Source: Muribaculaceae bacterium
GTDB lineage: Bacteria; Bacteroidota; Bacteroidia; Bacteroidales; Muribaculaceae
Assembly: GCA_016290325.1 (NCBI GenBank)
Contig: JAEETL010000003.1
Span: forward strand, 1-64,000
Reading direction: 5' to 3'
DNA: 64,000 bases
In this document: positions 1,684 through 58,269 of the stretch, piece after piece
How the letters are laid out: each line of letters starts with the position of its first letter
Position numbering within the stretch: the first letter of the stretch is position 1
Position numbers and translations under genes: made by a program
The notes under the pieces: generated by a model
The model's input: the letters and a program-made list of their open reading frames with translations, nothing else
Told to the model about the DNA's origin: nothing
Databases searched by the model: none

Positions 1684-3423
1684 TCATTGTGCCAACAGGA
1701 TGTCTATAAGTTCTGTTACATCGGTGATGTTTACCTTGCCGTCACCGTTAACGTCACTGGCTCCATAGTTAATTTCATTTCCTTGTGTAGTCAACAAAAA
1801 GTCAATCAACTCAGTCACGTCACCTATTCCCAACAAGCCGTTTCCGTCTGCGTCGCCCAGAGGCCTGATCTCACTGAACTGTTTCCAGTATTGGGCTGTT
1901 TTGTAAAGATCAAGTGCAGCCACAGGCACAAATAAGGTTGCCTGCCCGTAAACCTCAGGGTCAAAGTTAGACGGCTGGTCGGGTGAACCAGAGTCCCACA
2001 CTGTCCAAGTGTCTTCGGTTATTGGCGGTACTGCAGCAAGGCAAGTCACGCTACTTATATTGGGACATCTATGAAAAATGATCCCCATCTGTGTGATTGA
2101 ACTGCCAATCGTCACGTGAGACAAATTTGTACATCCCATAAACCAGCCAGCGCCCGAGTATTGAACTGGGGTCTCTACCGAGTTAGGTATGATAGCATGG
2201 GTCAGTCCCTTGCATTCAGCAAATGCAAATTTACCAATCAATTTGACAGAATTAGGAATATCGATGCTTCTCAATTCCTGGCAAGAATAAAAAGCACGAT
2301 CACCTATGGATGTGACTGTGCGTGGAATGATTGTGTTTTGGCATCCGGTAATCAGCTTGTCAGCAGTCGTTTCTATGATAGCATTACAGTTATCGCGAGA
2401 GTCATATACTGGATTATTCTCGTCAACTGTGATGCTTTCTAATGAGCTGCAGCCTTCGAATGGATTGCCAGTGATGGAGATGACTGAATGAGGGATATTA
2501 ATGTTTTTTAGCGTACTACATCCTTTAAACGCATCGCTGCTGATAGCAGTAACGGTATTGGGTATGACTGTATTTTGGCATCCTGCAATCAATGTGTTGT
2601 TAGCAGTTTTGATAATGGCGTTACAGTCGTCGCGTGAGTCATAGTAGGCGTTTCCGTTCTCTACAATGATTTCAGTTAATCCAGGGCAGCAGCAAAATGT
2701 TTCGCTCTCGATGATATTAACCGATCGAGGAATGGTTATGCTTGACAAGTGGGTACATCCATAGAAGGCCTGAGAACCAATAACAGTAACCGATGGTGCG
2801 ATATCGACGTTAGCCAGTCGCTTACAATCCATAAACGCATTCCCGTTAATGATTTTGACCGATTGAGGGATGGTCACGCTAGTCAATCTTTCACAGTTAC
2901 AAAACACATAATTATTTAGAGTCACAATTGTGTTGGGAATGTCCAAATCGGTGACTTCGACTCCGTTCAAGTAGAGATGTCGGGCATAATAAAGTGGATT
3001 GGAAAAGAGTGGGGAATAATCATCGCTATAGCATTCAGGAAAGTTAAATGAAATTTTACACCATGCCTCGATGCTGCTAATATCCACTCGCGTCAATTTG
3101 TCACATTTATAAAAAGCCATCATGCCGATTTCTGTCACCGTACTAGGGATTGCCACACTCGTCAGACCAGAACTGCTTCTAAAAGCCTCGGCATCAATAG
3201 CGGTGACGGCATAAGTGACACCATTGTGAACAACCCTTTGTGGAATAACGACATCACCGCTATAAGTGCTATAATTTGTCGTCTTGTAGGTAACAGTCGC
3301 CATTGTTCTGTTGGCTGTATAATAGATGCCGTCCTCTTCAAAGTCATAGGCACTGGCATCATGTATGCTTGCCAACAATGCAAGGAGCAGGATTGGCAAT
3401 TTAAAGAACAATGGATTTTTCAT
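1684..3423 (-). CDS. BspA-like leucine-rich repeat surface protein with C-terminal dockerin-like repeats
   Basis: Repeated LTSVTIPxSVxxIxxxAFxxC units; C-terminus DADGNGLLGIGDVTELIDFLL...DVNGDGKVNITDVTELIDILLAQ. Confidence 0.88.
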   Translation of the reverse strand: MKNPLFFKLPILLLALLASIHDASAYDFEEDGIYYTANRTMATVTYKTTNYSTYSGDVVIPQRVVHNGVTYAVTAIDAEAFRSSSGLTSVAIPSTVTEIGMMAFYKCDKLTRVDISSIEAWCKISFNFPECYSDDYSPLFSNPLYYARHLYLNGVEVTDLDIPNTIVTLNNYVFCNCERLTSVTIPQSVKIINGNAFMDCKRLANVDIAPSVTVIGSQAFYGCTHLSSITIPRSVNIIESETFCCCPGLTEIIVENGNAYYDSRDDCNAIIKTANNTLIAGCQNTVIPNTVTAISSDAFKGCSTLKNINIPHSVISITGNPFEGCSSLESITVDENNPVYDSRDNCNAIIETTADKLITGCQNTIIPRTVTSIGDRAFYSCQELRSIDIPNSVKLIGKFAFAECKGLTHAIIPNSVETPVQYSGAGWFMGCTNLSHVTIGSSITQMGIIFHRCPNISSVTCLAAVPPITEDTWTVWDSGSPDQPSNFDPEVYGQATLFVPVAALDLYKTAQYWKQFSEIRPLGDADGNGLLGIGDVTELIDFLLTTQGNEINYGASDVNGDGKVNITDVTELIDILLAQ

Positions 3424-3447
3424 GATGCTCTTAATTTAGATATGTGT

Positions 3448-5775
3448 TTAATCGGGTATTGTGGTAATTCTCCCTTTCAGGCGGATGTCGTTGCTTGATG
3501 GTCCAATTAGAATCTGATAAGTGCTGGGTTCCACGGTCCATTCCATATTGGCATCAACAATGCCCAGGTCACCATAATCAAGGTCAAGCGTCACTTGGCG
3601 GGTCTCGCCAGGTTCAAGTGTAATTCGCTTAAAGGCCTTCAGTTGGCGTTCGGGTTGAACGACCGATGGATGGTCTTGATGCAGATATAGTTGAACGACT
3701 TCGTCGCCCTTGCGGTTGCCGGTGTTGGTCACCTTGAATGAGGCATCAAGTCCATCGATGATAGTGAGGTCGCTGTACTCAAATGTAGTGTAACTCAAGC
3801 CATAGCCGAAAGGGTAGAGTGGCTGTGCGCTCATCTCCACATAATCGTGGGCCACAGGTACCGGCTTGTTATAATACACGGGCAATTGGCCCACATGTCG
3901 CGGTACACTCACGGGAAGTCTCCCGGCTGGGTTATAATCGCCGAACAGCACATCGGCAATGGCGCTACCGCCTTGCTCTCCGGGATAGTAAGCGGTGAGC
4001 AGGGCGTTGGCGTTCTCATCGGCCCAGTTCTTGTTCAGGGGGCGTCCCTCGATATAGACGACCACGAGCGGTTTGCCTGTTTTCTTTAAGGCCTCGAGCA
4101 GGTCCATCTGGCGTCCCAACAGGTCCAGCGTGGCTCGGTCAAAGCCCTCGCCGCATTCCATGTCGCTGATGAACTTTTGATTGGCGGTAGCGGCACCCGT
4201 GTCCTCGTAGGAGGTCTTGAAATCCCTCGCCGATGAACCGCCCACCACGGCAACCACCACGTCGGCCTGCATGGCTGTCTCAACGGCTGCGGGAATGTCG
4301 CTGTCCAGCGTATCACGCACGGCACAACCCTTGGCATAGACACAACTGGCCTCGCCAAGCATCGCCTTAATACCGTTATAGACAGTAACCACTTTCCCAT
4401 CGGCCTGAGGTGCGGTGTAATCGCCCAACATATTATAAACGTTATCGGCATTAGGCCCGACAACGGCAACTTTGACCTTTTTGTTCAAAGGCAATATACC
4501 GTCGTTCTTGAGCAAGGTAATCGACTCCAGTGCTGTTTGCTTTGCCGTGGCAACAGCCGCATCGTTATGGACTTCCTTTTGTGCCGTTTTGGCATTAACG
4601 TAGGGATTCTCAAAAAGGCCCATCTCAAATTTCAACCACAGCACTCGCTTCACGGCAGTGTTGACAGCCTCTTCACTCACTTTACCCTGCTTGACAGCAT
4701 CAACGAGTTTTGAAAAACAGTTTCCTCCTAAATCCACGTCAACGCCAGCTAATAGTGCCTGGATGGCGGCTTCTTGTGACGAGGCTGCCGTGTGGTGGGT
4801 TCCTCTTAGGCCGTCAATGCTAAAAAGGTCGCTGACGACAAATCCGCGGTCAAATCCCCATTCTCCACGCAATACATCAGTAAGTAATTCCTTGTTGGAT
4901 GTGCAAGGCACACCGTCAAGCGAGTTGTAAGAGGTCATTACTGACAAAGCCCCTGCATCGATGGCGCGCTTAAATGGTGGCAGGAACACCTGTTTCAGTT
5001 CCCGTGGCCCTACGATGCTTCGGGCACCGTTCTGACCGCCCTCGGTCGTGCCATAGGCGATAAAATGCTTCAAGGTAGCAATGGTCGAGTAGGGCAGACT
5101 CAAATCTCCTTCACCTAGCCCGCGCACCATCGCGGCACCCATTTTGCCACCCAGGTAGTGATCTTCACCCATCGTCTCCTCGACACGTGACCAGCGGGGT
5201 TCACGTGCCAGGTCCAGTACTGGTCCATAACTGATGTGACCGCCTTGTAGCCTGATTTCCTTGCTGATAACTGCTCCCGCTTGCTCCATCAGTTGCTGAT
5301 TCCAGGTTGCGGCCATACCCAATCCAGTTGGGAAGACCGTTGGTCCGATGGCCATGTGACCGTGTGGGGCTTCCTCAGCCAGAAAGATGGGAATGCCCAG
5401 CCGTGAATGTTCGATGGCATAGCGTTGCATGGCATTGGCTGCCTCGGCTGCCAGAGCTGGATTCAAACCGTTGTCAAGCGTCTTTTGTGTCCATGGGTCG
5501 GCACGGAAAACCGCCCAATACATGCCCACGTGCAGGCTGTCTATCTCGTGGCGGAATTTGTCACTGACGGCCACTTTCTTGCCATTTCTCACGTAGGAAT
5601 CCCAACCCATAAGGCAAACCAACTGCCCGACTTTTTCCTCTAGCGTCATGCGAGAAAGTAAATCCTGAGCGCGCACAGATGGGTGCAAACTGGAATCCTG
5701 ATAAGGATATTTTGTTGCAGCAGCCATTGTCAATGACAATAGCAACAAACCCGATAAGAGAAGTCGTTTCATCAT
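3448..5775 (-). CDS. Glycoside hydrolase family 3 (beta-glucosidase/beta-xylosidase-like)
   Basis: Signal peptide, GH3 N domain with VVSDLFSIDGL (nucleophile region), GH3 C domain, fibronectin III-like C-terminus. Confidence 0.93.
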   Translation of the reverse strand: MMKRLLLSGLLLLSLTMAAATKYPYQDSSLHPSVRAQDLLSRMTLEEKVGQLVCLMGWDSYVRNGKKVAVSDKFRHEIDSLHVGMYWAVFRADPWTQKTLDNGLNPALAAEAANAMQRYAIEHSRLGIPIFLAEEAPHGHMAIGPTVFPTGLGMAATWNQQLMEQAGAVISKEIRLQGGHISYGPVLDLAREPRWSRVEETMGEDHYLGGKMGAAMVRGLGEGDLSLPYSTIATLKHFIAYGTTEGGQNGARSIVGPRELKQVFLPPFKRAIDAGALSVMTSYNSLDGVPCTSNKELLTDVLRGEWGFDRGFVVSDLFSIDGLRGTHHTAASSQEAAIQALLAGVDVDLGGNCFSKLVDAVKQGKVSEEAVNTAVKRVLWLKFEMGLFENPYVNAKTAQKEVHNDAAVATAKQTALESITLLKNDGILPLNKKVKVAVVGPNADNVYNMLGDYTAPQADGKVVTVYNGIKAMLGEASCVYAKGCAVRDTLDSDIPAAVETAMQADVVVAVVGGSSARDFKTSYEDTGAATANQKFISDMECGEGFDRATLDLLGRQMDLLEALKKTGKPLVVVYIEGRPLNKNWADENANALLTAYYPGEQGGSAIADVLFGDYNPAGRLPVSVPRHVGQLPVYYNKPVPVAHDYVEMSAQPLYPFGYGLSYTTFEYSDLTIIDGLDASFKVTNTGNRKGDEVVQLYLHQDHPSVVQPERQLKAFKRITLEPGETRQVTLDLDYGDLGIVDANMEWTVEPSTYQILIGPSSNDIRLKGRITTIPD

Positions 5776-38956: not shown

Positions 38957-41131
38957 TTATTCAGCCACTTCCTTTTTAGCTTTGGCTTTTTTGATGCTAG
39001 TGGTGATTTTGTCGTCCTTGACATCGATAACAATCGTGTCACCAGCTACAGCCTCTTCACGCAGCAGCATCTCGCTTAGCGGGTCTTCGATTTCGCTTTG
39101 GATGGCTCGTTTCAGTGGGCGTGCGCCATATTGGATGTCAAAGCCACGGTCGGCCACGAGATTCTTAGCCGCATCAGTAATTTCCAGCTTCAAACCATTC
39201 TCCTCTACACGCCTGTAGAATCCGGCCAACTCAATATCGACAATCTTGAGGATGCAGTCATGGTTCAATGCGCCAAAGGTCACGATATCGTCAACACGGT
39301 TCAGGAACTCAGGCGAGAACTGTCGGTTCAAAGCTTTGCGGATAACCGCATCGCTTCGTTCCTTGGTCAGTTCGCTAGTGTTGAAACCAACGCCCGCGCC
39401 AAAGTCTTTAAGCTCTCGGGTACCGATATTTGACGTCATGATGACGATTGTGTTCTTGAAATCCACCTTACGGCCCAATCCATCGGTCAAGCTACCCTCG
39501 TCGAGTACCTGCAAAAGCATGTTAAACACGTCAGGGTGGGCTTTCTCAATCTCATCAAGTAATACTACGCTATAGGGATGACGGCGCACTTTTTCGGTCA
39601 GTTGGCCGCCCTCCTCATAACCCACGTAACCCGGAGGCGCACCCACAAGCCTGGAGACATTGAATTTCTCCATATACTCGCTCATATCGACACGGATAAG
39701 CGCATCGGCCGAGTTAAAGAGGAATTCAGCGAGCTTTTTGGCAAGCAAGGTCTTTCCTACACCCGTCGGTCCCAGGAACATGAACGAACCGATAGGGCGC
39801 TTGGGATCACGCAGACCTGCACGGTTGCGGCGTATGCTGCGCGCAATCTTGTCGATGGCCTCATCCTGGCCGACTACTTGCTTCTTGAGTTCATCGGTCA
39901 TGCCAAGCAGACGGATACCTTCACTTTGAGCAATGCGCTGGGTGGGCACGCCAGTCATCATGGCGACCACCTCGGCGATGTGACCTTCATTAACAGTCAC
40001 GCGGCGGCTGTCCAATTCCTGTTCCCAGCGCTCCTTAGCCTCAATCAATTCATCTTTCAGCTTTTCCTGTTGGTCACGATAGCTGGCAGCACTCTCAAAG
40101 TTCTGGGCCTGAACTGCCTTGAATTTGTTCTCTTGGGCTTCGGCAATACGTTTTTCCAGATCTTCAATCTCCTTAGGAGTATCCACTTTAGTGATATGCA
40201 CACGTGAACCTGCTTCATCCATCGCATCAATGGCCTTATCGGGGAAGAATCGGTCGCTGATGTATCGGTCGGTCAATGTAACACAAGCCCTCAAAGCCTC
40301 ATCGGTGTAGTTCACGCCGTGGTGCTTTTCATACATCTCCTTAATGTTGTGAAGAATCTCCAACGTCTGCTCGGGCGATGTCGGTTCCACAAGCACTTTT
40401 TGGAAACGGCGTTCAAGGGCACCGTCCTTCTCGATGCTCTTGCGGTACTCATCAAGTGTAGTGGCACCAATGCACTGGAACTCGCCACGTGCAAGGGCCG
40501 GCTTAAGCAAGTTGGCGGCATCCATTGAGCCGCTGGCGTTGCCCGCGCCCACAATGTTATGTATCTCATCAATAAACATGATGACATTCTTATTGGCGCT
40601 CACCTCATCGATGACCGCTTTAAGGCGTTCCTCAAACTGGCCACGGTACTTGGTGCCGGCAACGATGGCAGCCATGTCAAGCGAGATGATGCGCTTGTCG
40701 AGCAGGGTGCGAGCCACCTTGCGTTCCACAATGCGCTTAGCAAGGCCCTCGATAATAGCGCTCTTGCCCACACCGGGCTCACCAATCATTACCGGGTTAT
40801 TCTTCTTGCGACGGCTCAGAATTTGCGCCAAGCGCTCAATCTCCACCTCGCGGCCCACAACGGGATCAAGCCGCCCCTCGGCAGCCTCACGAGTGATGTC
40901 TTTGCCATATTTATCGATTACGGGAGTGGCAGAATTGTCACCCCGACTGACATTTCGTCGCTGTCGTGTCTCGCGGTAGGATGGATTGTCGCTTTCTCCG
41001 TCACCGGTATAACCACCGCCAGGCAGGTCATCATCCTCGTCTTCTTCGTCGGGGAAGTCCGCACCTGCTTTAGGCAGGGCAAAATCCTGCCGCCAGTACT
41101 CTTGTTGCATTTCGTGCTGGTCGTGTATCAT
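38957..41131 (-). CDS. clpC: ClpC-type AAA+ ATPase lacking the N-terminal Clp_N repeat domain
   Basis: Two AAA+ modules ([34 protein letters not shown]), UVR-like middle region; Walker A at about residue 117; in-frame TAG two codons upstream of ATG. Confidence 0.93.
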
Positions 41132-41186: not shown

Positions 41187-41202
41187 AGCAAACACCGTGC
41201 CA
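41187..41202 (-). promoter_or_regulatory. Putative sigma-54 (-24/-12) promoter of clpC
   Basis: Minus strand TGGCAC-GGTGT-TTGCT, matches TGGCACG-N4-TTGCW exactly; about 55 bp upstream of ATG. Confidence 0.75.
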
Positions 41203-41238
41203 TCTAATAACGATAGGGCAGAATCAGAATGAATAAAA

Positions 41239-51227: not shown

Positions 51228-51322
51228 TTTTGGCATAAAAAGCTGAACAAAATTATAACATGATTGGCCGCTGGCGGCTGATGTGGCAGGGTAGGGGTGA
51301 CAATTTGTCGGTTTTACCCTAT

Positions 51323-51338
51323 TGGCACATTCGTTGCA
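51323..51338 (+). promoter_or_regulatory. Putative sigma-54 (-24/-12) promoter of groESL
   Basis: TGGCAC-ATTCG-TTGCA exact -24/-12 spacing; 61 bp upstream of groES ATG. Confidence 0.75.
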
Positions 51339-51398
51339 GAATTGCAAAGAGTGAAAACAATTAAAACAACAAATATCTTTTAAACATCATTAAAAATC

Positions 51399-51671
51399 AT
51401 GACAATTAAACCATTAAATGACCGCGTTCTTATCGAACCGGCAAAAGCAGAAGAAGTCGTTGGCGGTATCATCATCCCTGACAGCGCTAAGGAAAAACCT
51501 CTGAAAGGTAAAGTGCGTGCCGCCGGTAATGGCACCAAAGACGAGGAAATGATTGTGAAACCCGGTGACACCGTACTGTACGGTAAGTATGCGGGCAACG
51601 AGATTGAAATCGACGGCGAGAAACTGCTCATGATGCGTCAGAATGACATCCTGGCCATCGTAATGGATTAA
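51399..51671 (+). CDS. groES: Co-chaperonin GroES
   Basis: [34 protein letters not shown]. Confidence 0.98.
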
Positions 51672-51765: not shown

Positions 51766-53409
<1,644 letters not shown>

Positions 53410-56775: not shown

Positions 56776-58269
56776 TCAGCAGGTGGAATCTTCCGCTTGT
56801 TGGTTTGTTGTTGTTAGCCCATCACTGTTACATGGTTTTGATCGCTTGATTTTCCAACCGATCGCAGCGATGAAAATCGACATGAGTGGGCTCAGGTAAT
56901 TAAAGAAACAATAGGGCAGATAGGTGAGGGTAGGGACGCCTAATACCGTCGCCTGGGTCATGCCACATGTGTTCCAGGGTACCAACACCGATGTGACAGT
57001 AACGGCATCCTCGGTGGTACGGCTAAGCAATCGGGCTTCATAGCCTTCCTTTTCATACACGTTGCGGAACATGTCGGCAGTGAGCACAATACTGATAAAC
57101 TGGTCTCCAGTGGCCACATTCAGGAACATGCCGGTCCCAACAGTCGATGCGACAAGGCTCACCCGGGTGCGCACCCAGCGTATAATTACACTTGTTATAC
57201 TCTCCAGCATGCCACTGGCCACCATCGACGCTCCAAAGCACATGGCACAGATGATGAGCCAAACCGTGTTGAGCATTCCCGCCATACCTCCAGTGGATAC
57301 CAGATCGTTAAGCGAAGCATTGCCGGTGTCGATGGCGGTCGAGCCATAATAGGTAATGGCAAGCCCCTTGGTTAACGCCGCTGCAGTGCCCAGCGAAGCG
57401 TCATTGGCGATCTGGGTCAGGAGGTGAGGCTGCAGGATGAGCGCAGTGATACCTGCCATGATCGACGAGGCAAATAACACGATGCATGACGACACTTGGC
57501 GGGCGATAAGTACACCGGTCACGATAGGGACGAGCAAAGTCCAAGCCGAGATGTTGAATGTGGAAGACAATCCAACAGTGTATTCCTCGACATGCAACGC
57601 GCCTTCGCCGCCCCTGCCAAAACCCGCAATAAGGAAGATAATGAGCGCAATGCTAATCGTGGGGACAGTGGTATACATCATGTAACGGATGTGCTTGAAA
57701 ATGTCAACCCTTGTGGACGAAGACGCCAAAATGGTTGTGTCACTCAAGGGTGACATCTTGTCACCAAAATAAGCCCCTGAGATGATGGCACCAGCTGTCC
57801 ATGCCTCGCTCACGCCTAAGGCGTCACCGATGCCCAGCAATGCAACTCCAATGGTGGCAATCGTTGTCCACGAGCTGCCTGACAGCAACGACACCAGCGC
57901 GCAGATGGCGCACGCGCTCACTAGAAAGAAGCGAGGAGAGAGTATCTGTACACCATAATAAATAAGTGTAGGCACTACACCACTTACCATCCACGATCCC
58001 GACAGCATTCCCACCGATAGCAGAATCAATATCGTAACAAAGATTCCGCTCATCGTTTTAGTCATCTGATCCTCAAAGGCCTTCCAGGGCACATGATAGA
58101 AAACAGTGGAAATCAGCGCACAAACCGCCATACCCATAATAAGGGCAATCTGGCTGCCGCCACTCAACGAATCACTACCAAAAAGCGCGATGGCCACGGC
58201 CAGCAGGCCAATGAGCACCACGACAGGAATGATTGATATTAGGGGATGAGGAAGTTTCCGGTCAGTCAT
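56776..58269 (-). CDS. Na+/H+ antiporter, NhaC family
   Basis: LSGSSWTTIATIGVALLGIG, AIISGAYFGDKMSPLSDTTILASS; start MTDRKLPHP chosen over track start 58317. Confidence 0.92.
   Translation of the reverse strand: MTDRKLPHPLISIIPVVVLIGLLAVAIALFGSDSLSGGSQIALIMGMAVCALISTVFYHVPWKAFEDQMTKTMSGIFVTILILLSVGMLSGSWMVSGVVPTLIYYGVQILSPRFFLVSACAICALVSLLSGSSWTTIATIGVALLGIGDALGVSEAWTAGAIISGAYFGDKMSPLSDTTILASSSTRVDIFKHIRYMMYTTVPTISIALIIFLIAGFGRGGEGALHVEEYTVGLSSTFNISAWTLLVPIVTGVLIARQVSSCIVLFASSIMAGITALILQPHLLTQIANDASLGTAAALTKGLAITYYGSTAIDTGNASLNDLVSTGGMAGMLNTVWLIICAMCFGASMVASGMLESITSVIIRWVRTRVSLVASTVGTGMFLNVATGDQFISIVLTADMFRNVYEKEGYEARLLSRTTEDAVTVTSVLVPWNTCGMTQATVLGVPTLTYLPYCFFNYLSPLMSIFIAAIGWKIKRSKPCNSDGLTTTNQQAEDSTC

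Follow-up and report, generated by a model that had tools for sequence, protein, structure and literature searches.

A sigma-54 promoter and a helically phased palindrome, the putative site of a single enhancer-binding protein, precede groESL in a Muribaculaceae bacterium

Results

The groESL promoter of this Muribaculaceae bacterium is probably read by RpoN, with a palindrome just upstream serving as the site of the only enhancer-binding protein (bEBP) encoded in the genome and with RpoN being required for basal expression, too. The window, i.e. the whole stretch of 64,000 nucleotides that was analysed, contains groES (51399..51671, + strand; 90 aa; homologues in 54 of 61 genomes) and, downstream in the same orientation, an ORF identified as groEL by inspection of its translation (51769..53409, + strand; 546 aa). 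Upstream of groES, a perfect -24/-12 sigma-54 site, TTGGCACATTCGTTGCA, was found at 51322-51338 of the + strand (local sequence ...accctaTTGGCACATTCGTTGCAgaattgc...), in which TGGCAC occupies 51323-51328 and TTGCA occupies 51334-51338. The GG at -24 and the GC at -12 are separated by the standard distance and the site matches the consensus TGGCAC-N5-TTGC. A sequence-only reading of the window had described TGGCAC-N5-TTGCA with exact spacing 61 bp upstream of groES; this is borne out by the sequence, the motif ending 61 bp before the ATG at 51399. Read off from the -12 position, transcription of groESL is predicted to start near 51349.

The same reading had remarked that both protein quality control loci of the window carry the motif and had noticed no other intergenic copy. 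Indeed, a motif scan of the window revealed only two exact copies, both intergenic, the second of which (TGGCACGGTGTTTGC at 41188-41202 or, one position longer, ATGGCACGGTGTTTGC at 41188..41203, - strand) is located 57 bp ahead of the ATG of clpC (38957..41131, - strand), encoding a 724 aa Clp ATPase with ClpB_D2-small, UVR and AAA_lid_9 domains. Two copies compare with 0.34 expected, and at least two were reached in 3 of 100 shuffles of the window; taken alone, the window evidence is only weakly significant, and the one-mismatch motif (10 found, 7.4 expected) was uninformative. It is the excess in the whole genome and the conservation in relatives, not the window, that argue for more than chance.

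The Bacteroidales assembly totals 2.93 Mb in 86 contigs, with a completeness of 92%, and contains 23 exact copies of the motif, compared to 4 of a reversed control pattern. Approximately 14 of the 23 precede gene starts in the right orientation and approximately 9 lie inside genes. Exact sites were found before dnaK (a perfect site), groES, clpC, htrA (trypsin and PDZ domains), rpoD, asd, panC and a gene for a LolA_2 protein, and further before adk, a TPR protein gene, the gene of a small glycine-rich lipoprotein and genes of unknown function; gene names were assigned by inspection of translations unless backed by domain or ORF evidence, as for htrA, clpC, rpoN and the bEBP gene. Sites with one mismatch precede hsp20, clpS-clpA (clpSA) and, probably, an NfeD-like gene. 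The site of clpB (TTGGCATAAGTGTTGA) and the weak site of htpG have a degenerate -12 element. The sequence-only reading had proposed an RpoN-dependent chaperone/protease regulon and had named dnaK, clpB, htpG and lon as further genes to scan. For dnaK the site is perfect and for clpB and htpG it is weaker, but the upstream region of lon contains no sigma-54 site, and lon was dropped as a member. The regulon as such is supported by the sites before groES, dnaK, clpC, htrA, clpSA, hsp20 and clpB, the RpoN dependence of their transcription being predicted from these sites. That the motif is tied to protein quality control holds for the chaperone and protease genes but not exclusively, since asd, panC, the LolA-like gene, rpoD and genes of unknown function carry it as well. 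Together, the LolA_2 gene, htrA and the NfeD-like gene hint at envelope genes in the regulon; the LolA_2 gene encodes an outer-membrane carrier and its site (contig C44:2820) is located approximately 20 bp away from the start listed for the ORF. A further sigma-54-like site (contig C35:25167), ahead of a 501-aa ORF, lies within a short repeat: TTGGCACGA is present there, together with its flanks, in more than one copy. A genome scan allowing two mismatches (489 matches, 224 in the control) was too noisy to be used and included sigma-A promoters such as TTTGCACTATCTTTGC.

In 28 of 30 same-genus loci the groES site has been preserved, with a score of at least 20.5 of 23 and at 50-117 bp from the ATG, against a background of divergence elsewhere in the leader; these loci share ancestry and their counts are not independent. 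A common variant in the genus has GTGCA instead of TTGCA. In 19 other families of the order, each represented by one genome, the best groES sites were located 42-82 bp from the ATG (combined Fisher p 1.9e-18). A strict search for TGGCAC-N5-TTGC followed by a groES start in 393 genomes of the order returned, besides the genome itself, only two matches in coding sequence; the groES-anchored alignment attributes this failure to variable spacing and -12 letters and not to an absent site.

A palindrome, TGACA-ATT-TGTCG (51298..51310, + strand), is located upstream of the groES site and is proposed to be the bEBP enhancer (UAS). At groES, dnaK and clpB of this genome, a gap of exactly 11 bp separates the end of the pattern TGACA-N3-TGTC(A/G) from TTGGCA; the distances are 32 and 73 bp for two copies at hsp20 and 78 bp for one at htrA. 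A search for the composite of palindrome and TTGGCA hit exactly four places in the genome, before dnaK, clpB, hsp20 and groES. In 81 genomes of the genus the composite was found at 134 places, compared to 10 in the control, and the gaps between palindrome and TTGGCA were 10-12 (51 composites), 20-23 (39) or 31-33 bp (30), with 14 elsewhere, i.e. the distance from the palindrome to the downstream -24 element amounts to one, two or three turns of the helix. Ninety composites were read out, of which 29 belonged to dnaK, 22 to groES, 9 each to clpB and hsp20 and 21 to other genes. Among the classified composites with a TGC at -12 in the genus, 60 of 61 precede groES, dnaK, clpB or hsp20 and the last runs off its contig. 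The gap at groES alone shifts between 11 and 21-23 bp among species. In the other families, single TGTCA/TGACA half-sites are enriched (38 observed, approximately 5 expected) and their positions follow a 10.5-bp period (Rayleigh p 3e-5 for TGTCA, a slightly optimistic value since 10.5 bp was the best of nine periods tried).

The conserved inverted repeat thus lies upstream of -24 in helical phase, as an enhancer would, but it is not found at every promoter that the same bEBP should serve: within 150 bp, clpC, clpSA, rpoD, asd and others are without it, and so are most sigma-54 sites of the genome. Because the palindrome is missing at many sigma-54 promoters, the UAS assignment is likely rather than established, and the sites of groES and clpC belong to different classes. 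Before htpG (contig C36), a palindrome, TGACGATTTGTCA, is located 22 bp upstream of the weak ATGGCATATTATTTGA, and htpG may be a degenerate member of the palindrome class. A perfect TGACATCTTGTCA at 57751-57763 of the window is located in the interior of a 514-aa ORF, has no accompanying sigma-54 site and is probably a chance match. The Desulfovibrio sigma-54 study (PMC4641369) held no usable TGTC/GACA sites of related bEBPs.

The genome encodes both an RpoN and a bEBP with the G-x-F-T-G-A signature. There is one copy of rpoN (486 aa; PF04552, E 1e-44; PF04963, E 1e-47) and one true bEBP, an NtrC-type AAA+ activator of 418 aa with a GSFTGA loop, in which the AAA+ domain (residues 19-185) has nothing ahead of it and a Fis-type HTH follows at residues 372-413. 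Of 30 same-genus genomes, 29 have exactly one bEBP and the remaining one is 62% complete; therefore, this protein has to serve all sigma-54 promoters of the genus. In six other families a bEBP orthologue (44-50% identity) is encoded upstream of groES in one contiguous run of genes (bEBP, LptE-like, TPR-like, SecG-like, groES, groEL), the LptE-like ORF not being seen in one of the six. In the genome studied here the bEBP gene (2307-3563 of the stretch read from contig C79) lies together with the LptE-, TPR- and SecG-like genes on that contig, apart from groES. All orthologues that were read share the same HTH end, ISERTLYRKIK. This invariance and the linkage to groES make the bEBP the best candidate for binding the palindrome. 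Since most sigma-54 promoters have no palindrome, the bEBP would have to act there by weak binding or without any specific binding, or another protein would occupy the palindrome.

A sigma-A motif (TTTG-N-TAnnTTTG) was found neither before groES, clpC, dnaK, clpB, hsp20 and htpG nor in 27 readable same-genus groES leaders; in the same test, a sigma-A-type motif was found before rpoD. Therefore, basal expression of groESL and the other chaperone genes is also predicted to depend on RpoN, in keeping with an activator that has no sensory domain.

The rpoD gene of this genome (contig C20:20207-21139) has a perfect sigma-54 site in addition to its sigma-A promoter. The closest named match of its product, from a MAG, is 99% identical, followed by proteins from Muribaculaceae MAGs at approximately 90%. 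Where rpoD is single-copy in the genus, it likewise combines the two, with a strong sigma-54 site within approximately 190 bp in 14 of 22 loci. In 17 same-genus genomes rpoD has a tandem duplicate, rpoD2. Each of these 17 copies has a sigma-54 site but lacks a sigma-A -7 element; each of the 17 originals beside them has a sigma-A element but lacks a strong sigma-54 site. At least two duplications are suggested by a quick tree, calculated without support values. Sigma-54 control of rpoD as an order-wide trait was rejected, the site being confined to the two nearest among 80 named loci.

Discussion

In the proposed mechanism, RNA polymerase with RpoN would read the groESL promoter at 51322-51338. 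The sole bEBP would bind the palindrome one, two or three turns upstream of the -24 element and, being on the same DNA face as the polymerase, would remodel Esigma54 into the open complex. Protein-folding stress may induce transcription, perhaps via the abundance of the bEBP or via a trans-acting inhibitor, as for PspF, which is held off by PspA.

That groESL is sigma-54-dependent is common to this mechanism and to a different one, in which a protein other than the bEBP (co-activator or heat-sensitive repressor) occupies the palindrome and all sigma-54 promoters are served by the bEBP without a specific enhancer. Such an arrangement would explain why, with one bEBP in the genome, only some sigma-54 promoters have the palindrome. 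It would also account for its position next to the polymerase: its centre would be near -45 relative to the predicted groESL start, which is unusual for a bEBP, whose enhancers usually lie much farther out. However, phasing by whole turns, to three turns and beyond, points to contact with the polymerase rather than to a steric block, and the orthologue beside groES in six families, with its invariant recognition helix, speaks for the bEBP itself. We consider binding by another protein rather unlikely.

Readings without a role, or with only a minor one, for sigma-54 are much harder to maintain. The number of shuffles that reach two exact matches, and near matches such as the one noted above which turned out to be sigma-A-type promoters, could be taken to mean that the groES motif arose by chance or is part of a sigma-A promoter; this is very improbable in view of the genome excess, the conservation in genus and order and the lack of TAnnTTTG near groES. 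Control by HrcA/CIRCE or by a sigma-32-type factor is the rule for heat-shock genes in many other bacteria and, if it applied here, the sigma-54 site would be of minor importance. But CIRCE (TTAGCACTC-N9-GAGTGCTAA) was not found in the window within 3 mismatches, nor as an exact match in 401 loci, and no other recognisable promoter precedes groESL, so that classical control is hardly to be expected. RpoN with its sole bEBP at the palindrome is, thus, the reading that we prefer.

A sigma-54 promoter before chaperone genes is not new and, by itself, ordinary. In Flavobacterium psychrophilum, a member of the same phylum, sigma-54 (SM4) promoters were mapped by 5' RNA-seq before groES-groEL, dnaK, grpE-dnaJ, htpG, clpB and lon, according to passages of that study (PMC9723704). 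The same passages report a sigma-54 promoter for lon, which has none here, and three PF00158 proteins, compared to one here, and the main-text passages mention neither a palindrome nor a dedicated activator (PMC9723704). A 2025 survey of Bacteroidia describes, in the passages available, sigma-54 enrichment for GroEL, GroES, GrpE, DnaJ, DnaK, Hsp20 and proteases and cites groES of Bacteroides thetaiotaomicron as sigma-54-dependent; these passages assign no chaperone activator or enhancer, and rpoD is absent from its main text (PMC12316311). The enhancer geometry and the single activator are unusual. No phased palindrome, single groES-linked activator or rpoD arrangement of this kind is reported in the open-access literature searched.

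The bEBP resembles PspF-type proteins in having an N-terminal AAA+ core followed by a Fis-type HTH, and PspF structures were among its sequence matches. Unlike PspF, it is the sole bEBP of its genome, its proposed site is promoter-proximal and helically phased and it has no known inhibitor. A system outside the Pseudomonadota with an AtoC activator is similar in that sigma-54 reaches chaperone genes, but there HrcA/CIRCE and sigma-66 act as well, whereas neither CIRCE nor a sigma-A motif was found at the chaperone promoters here.

The Bacteroidota are among the commonest gut bacteria, and there are few direct answers as to how they control their chaperones without the textbook heat-shock regulators. 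Sigma-54 promoters were already on record, but no chaperone activator or DNA site of it is named in the open-access literature searched; one gene is now put forward as the candidate activator and one short element as its DNA site, together with the predictions that activity depends on helical phasing, that basal groESL expression needs RpoN and that a second primary sigma factor is transcribed by sigma-54 only. A broader picture, for and against which we see the arguments as evenly balanced, is that in Bacteroidales a sensor-less bEBP, encoded next to groES in many families, would control the major chaperones via a promoter-proximal enhancer at whole-turn distances and that, in the genus, RpoN would also govern rpoD2 (sigma-54 only; the original sigma-A only). 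In that case, RpoN would head the stress hierarchy, replacing sigma-32 and HrcA.
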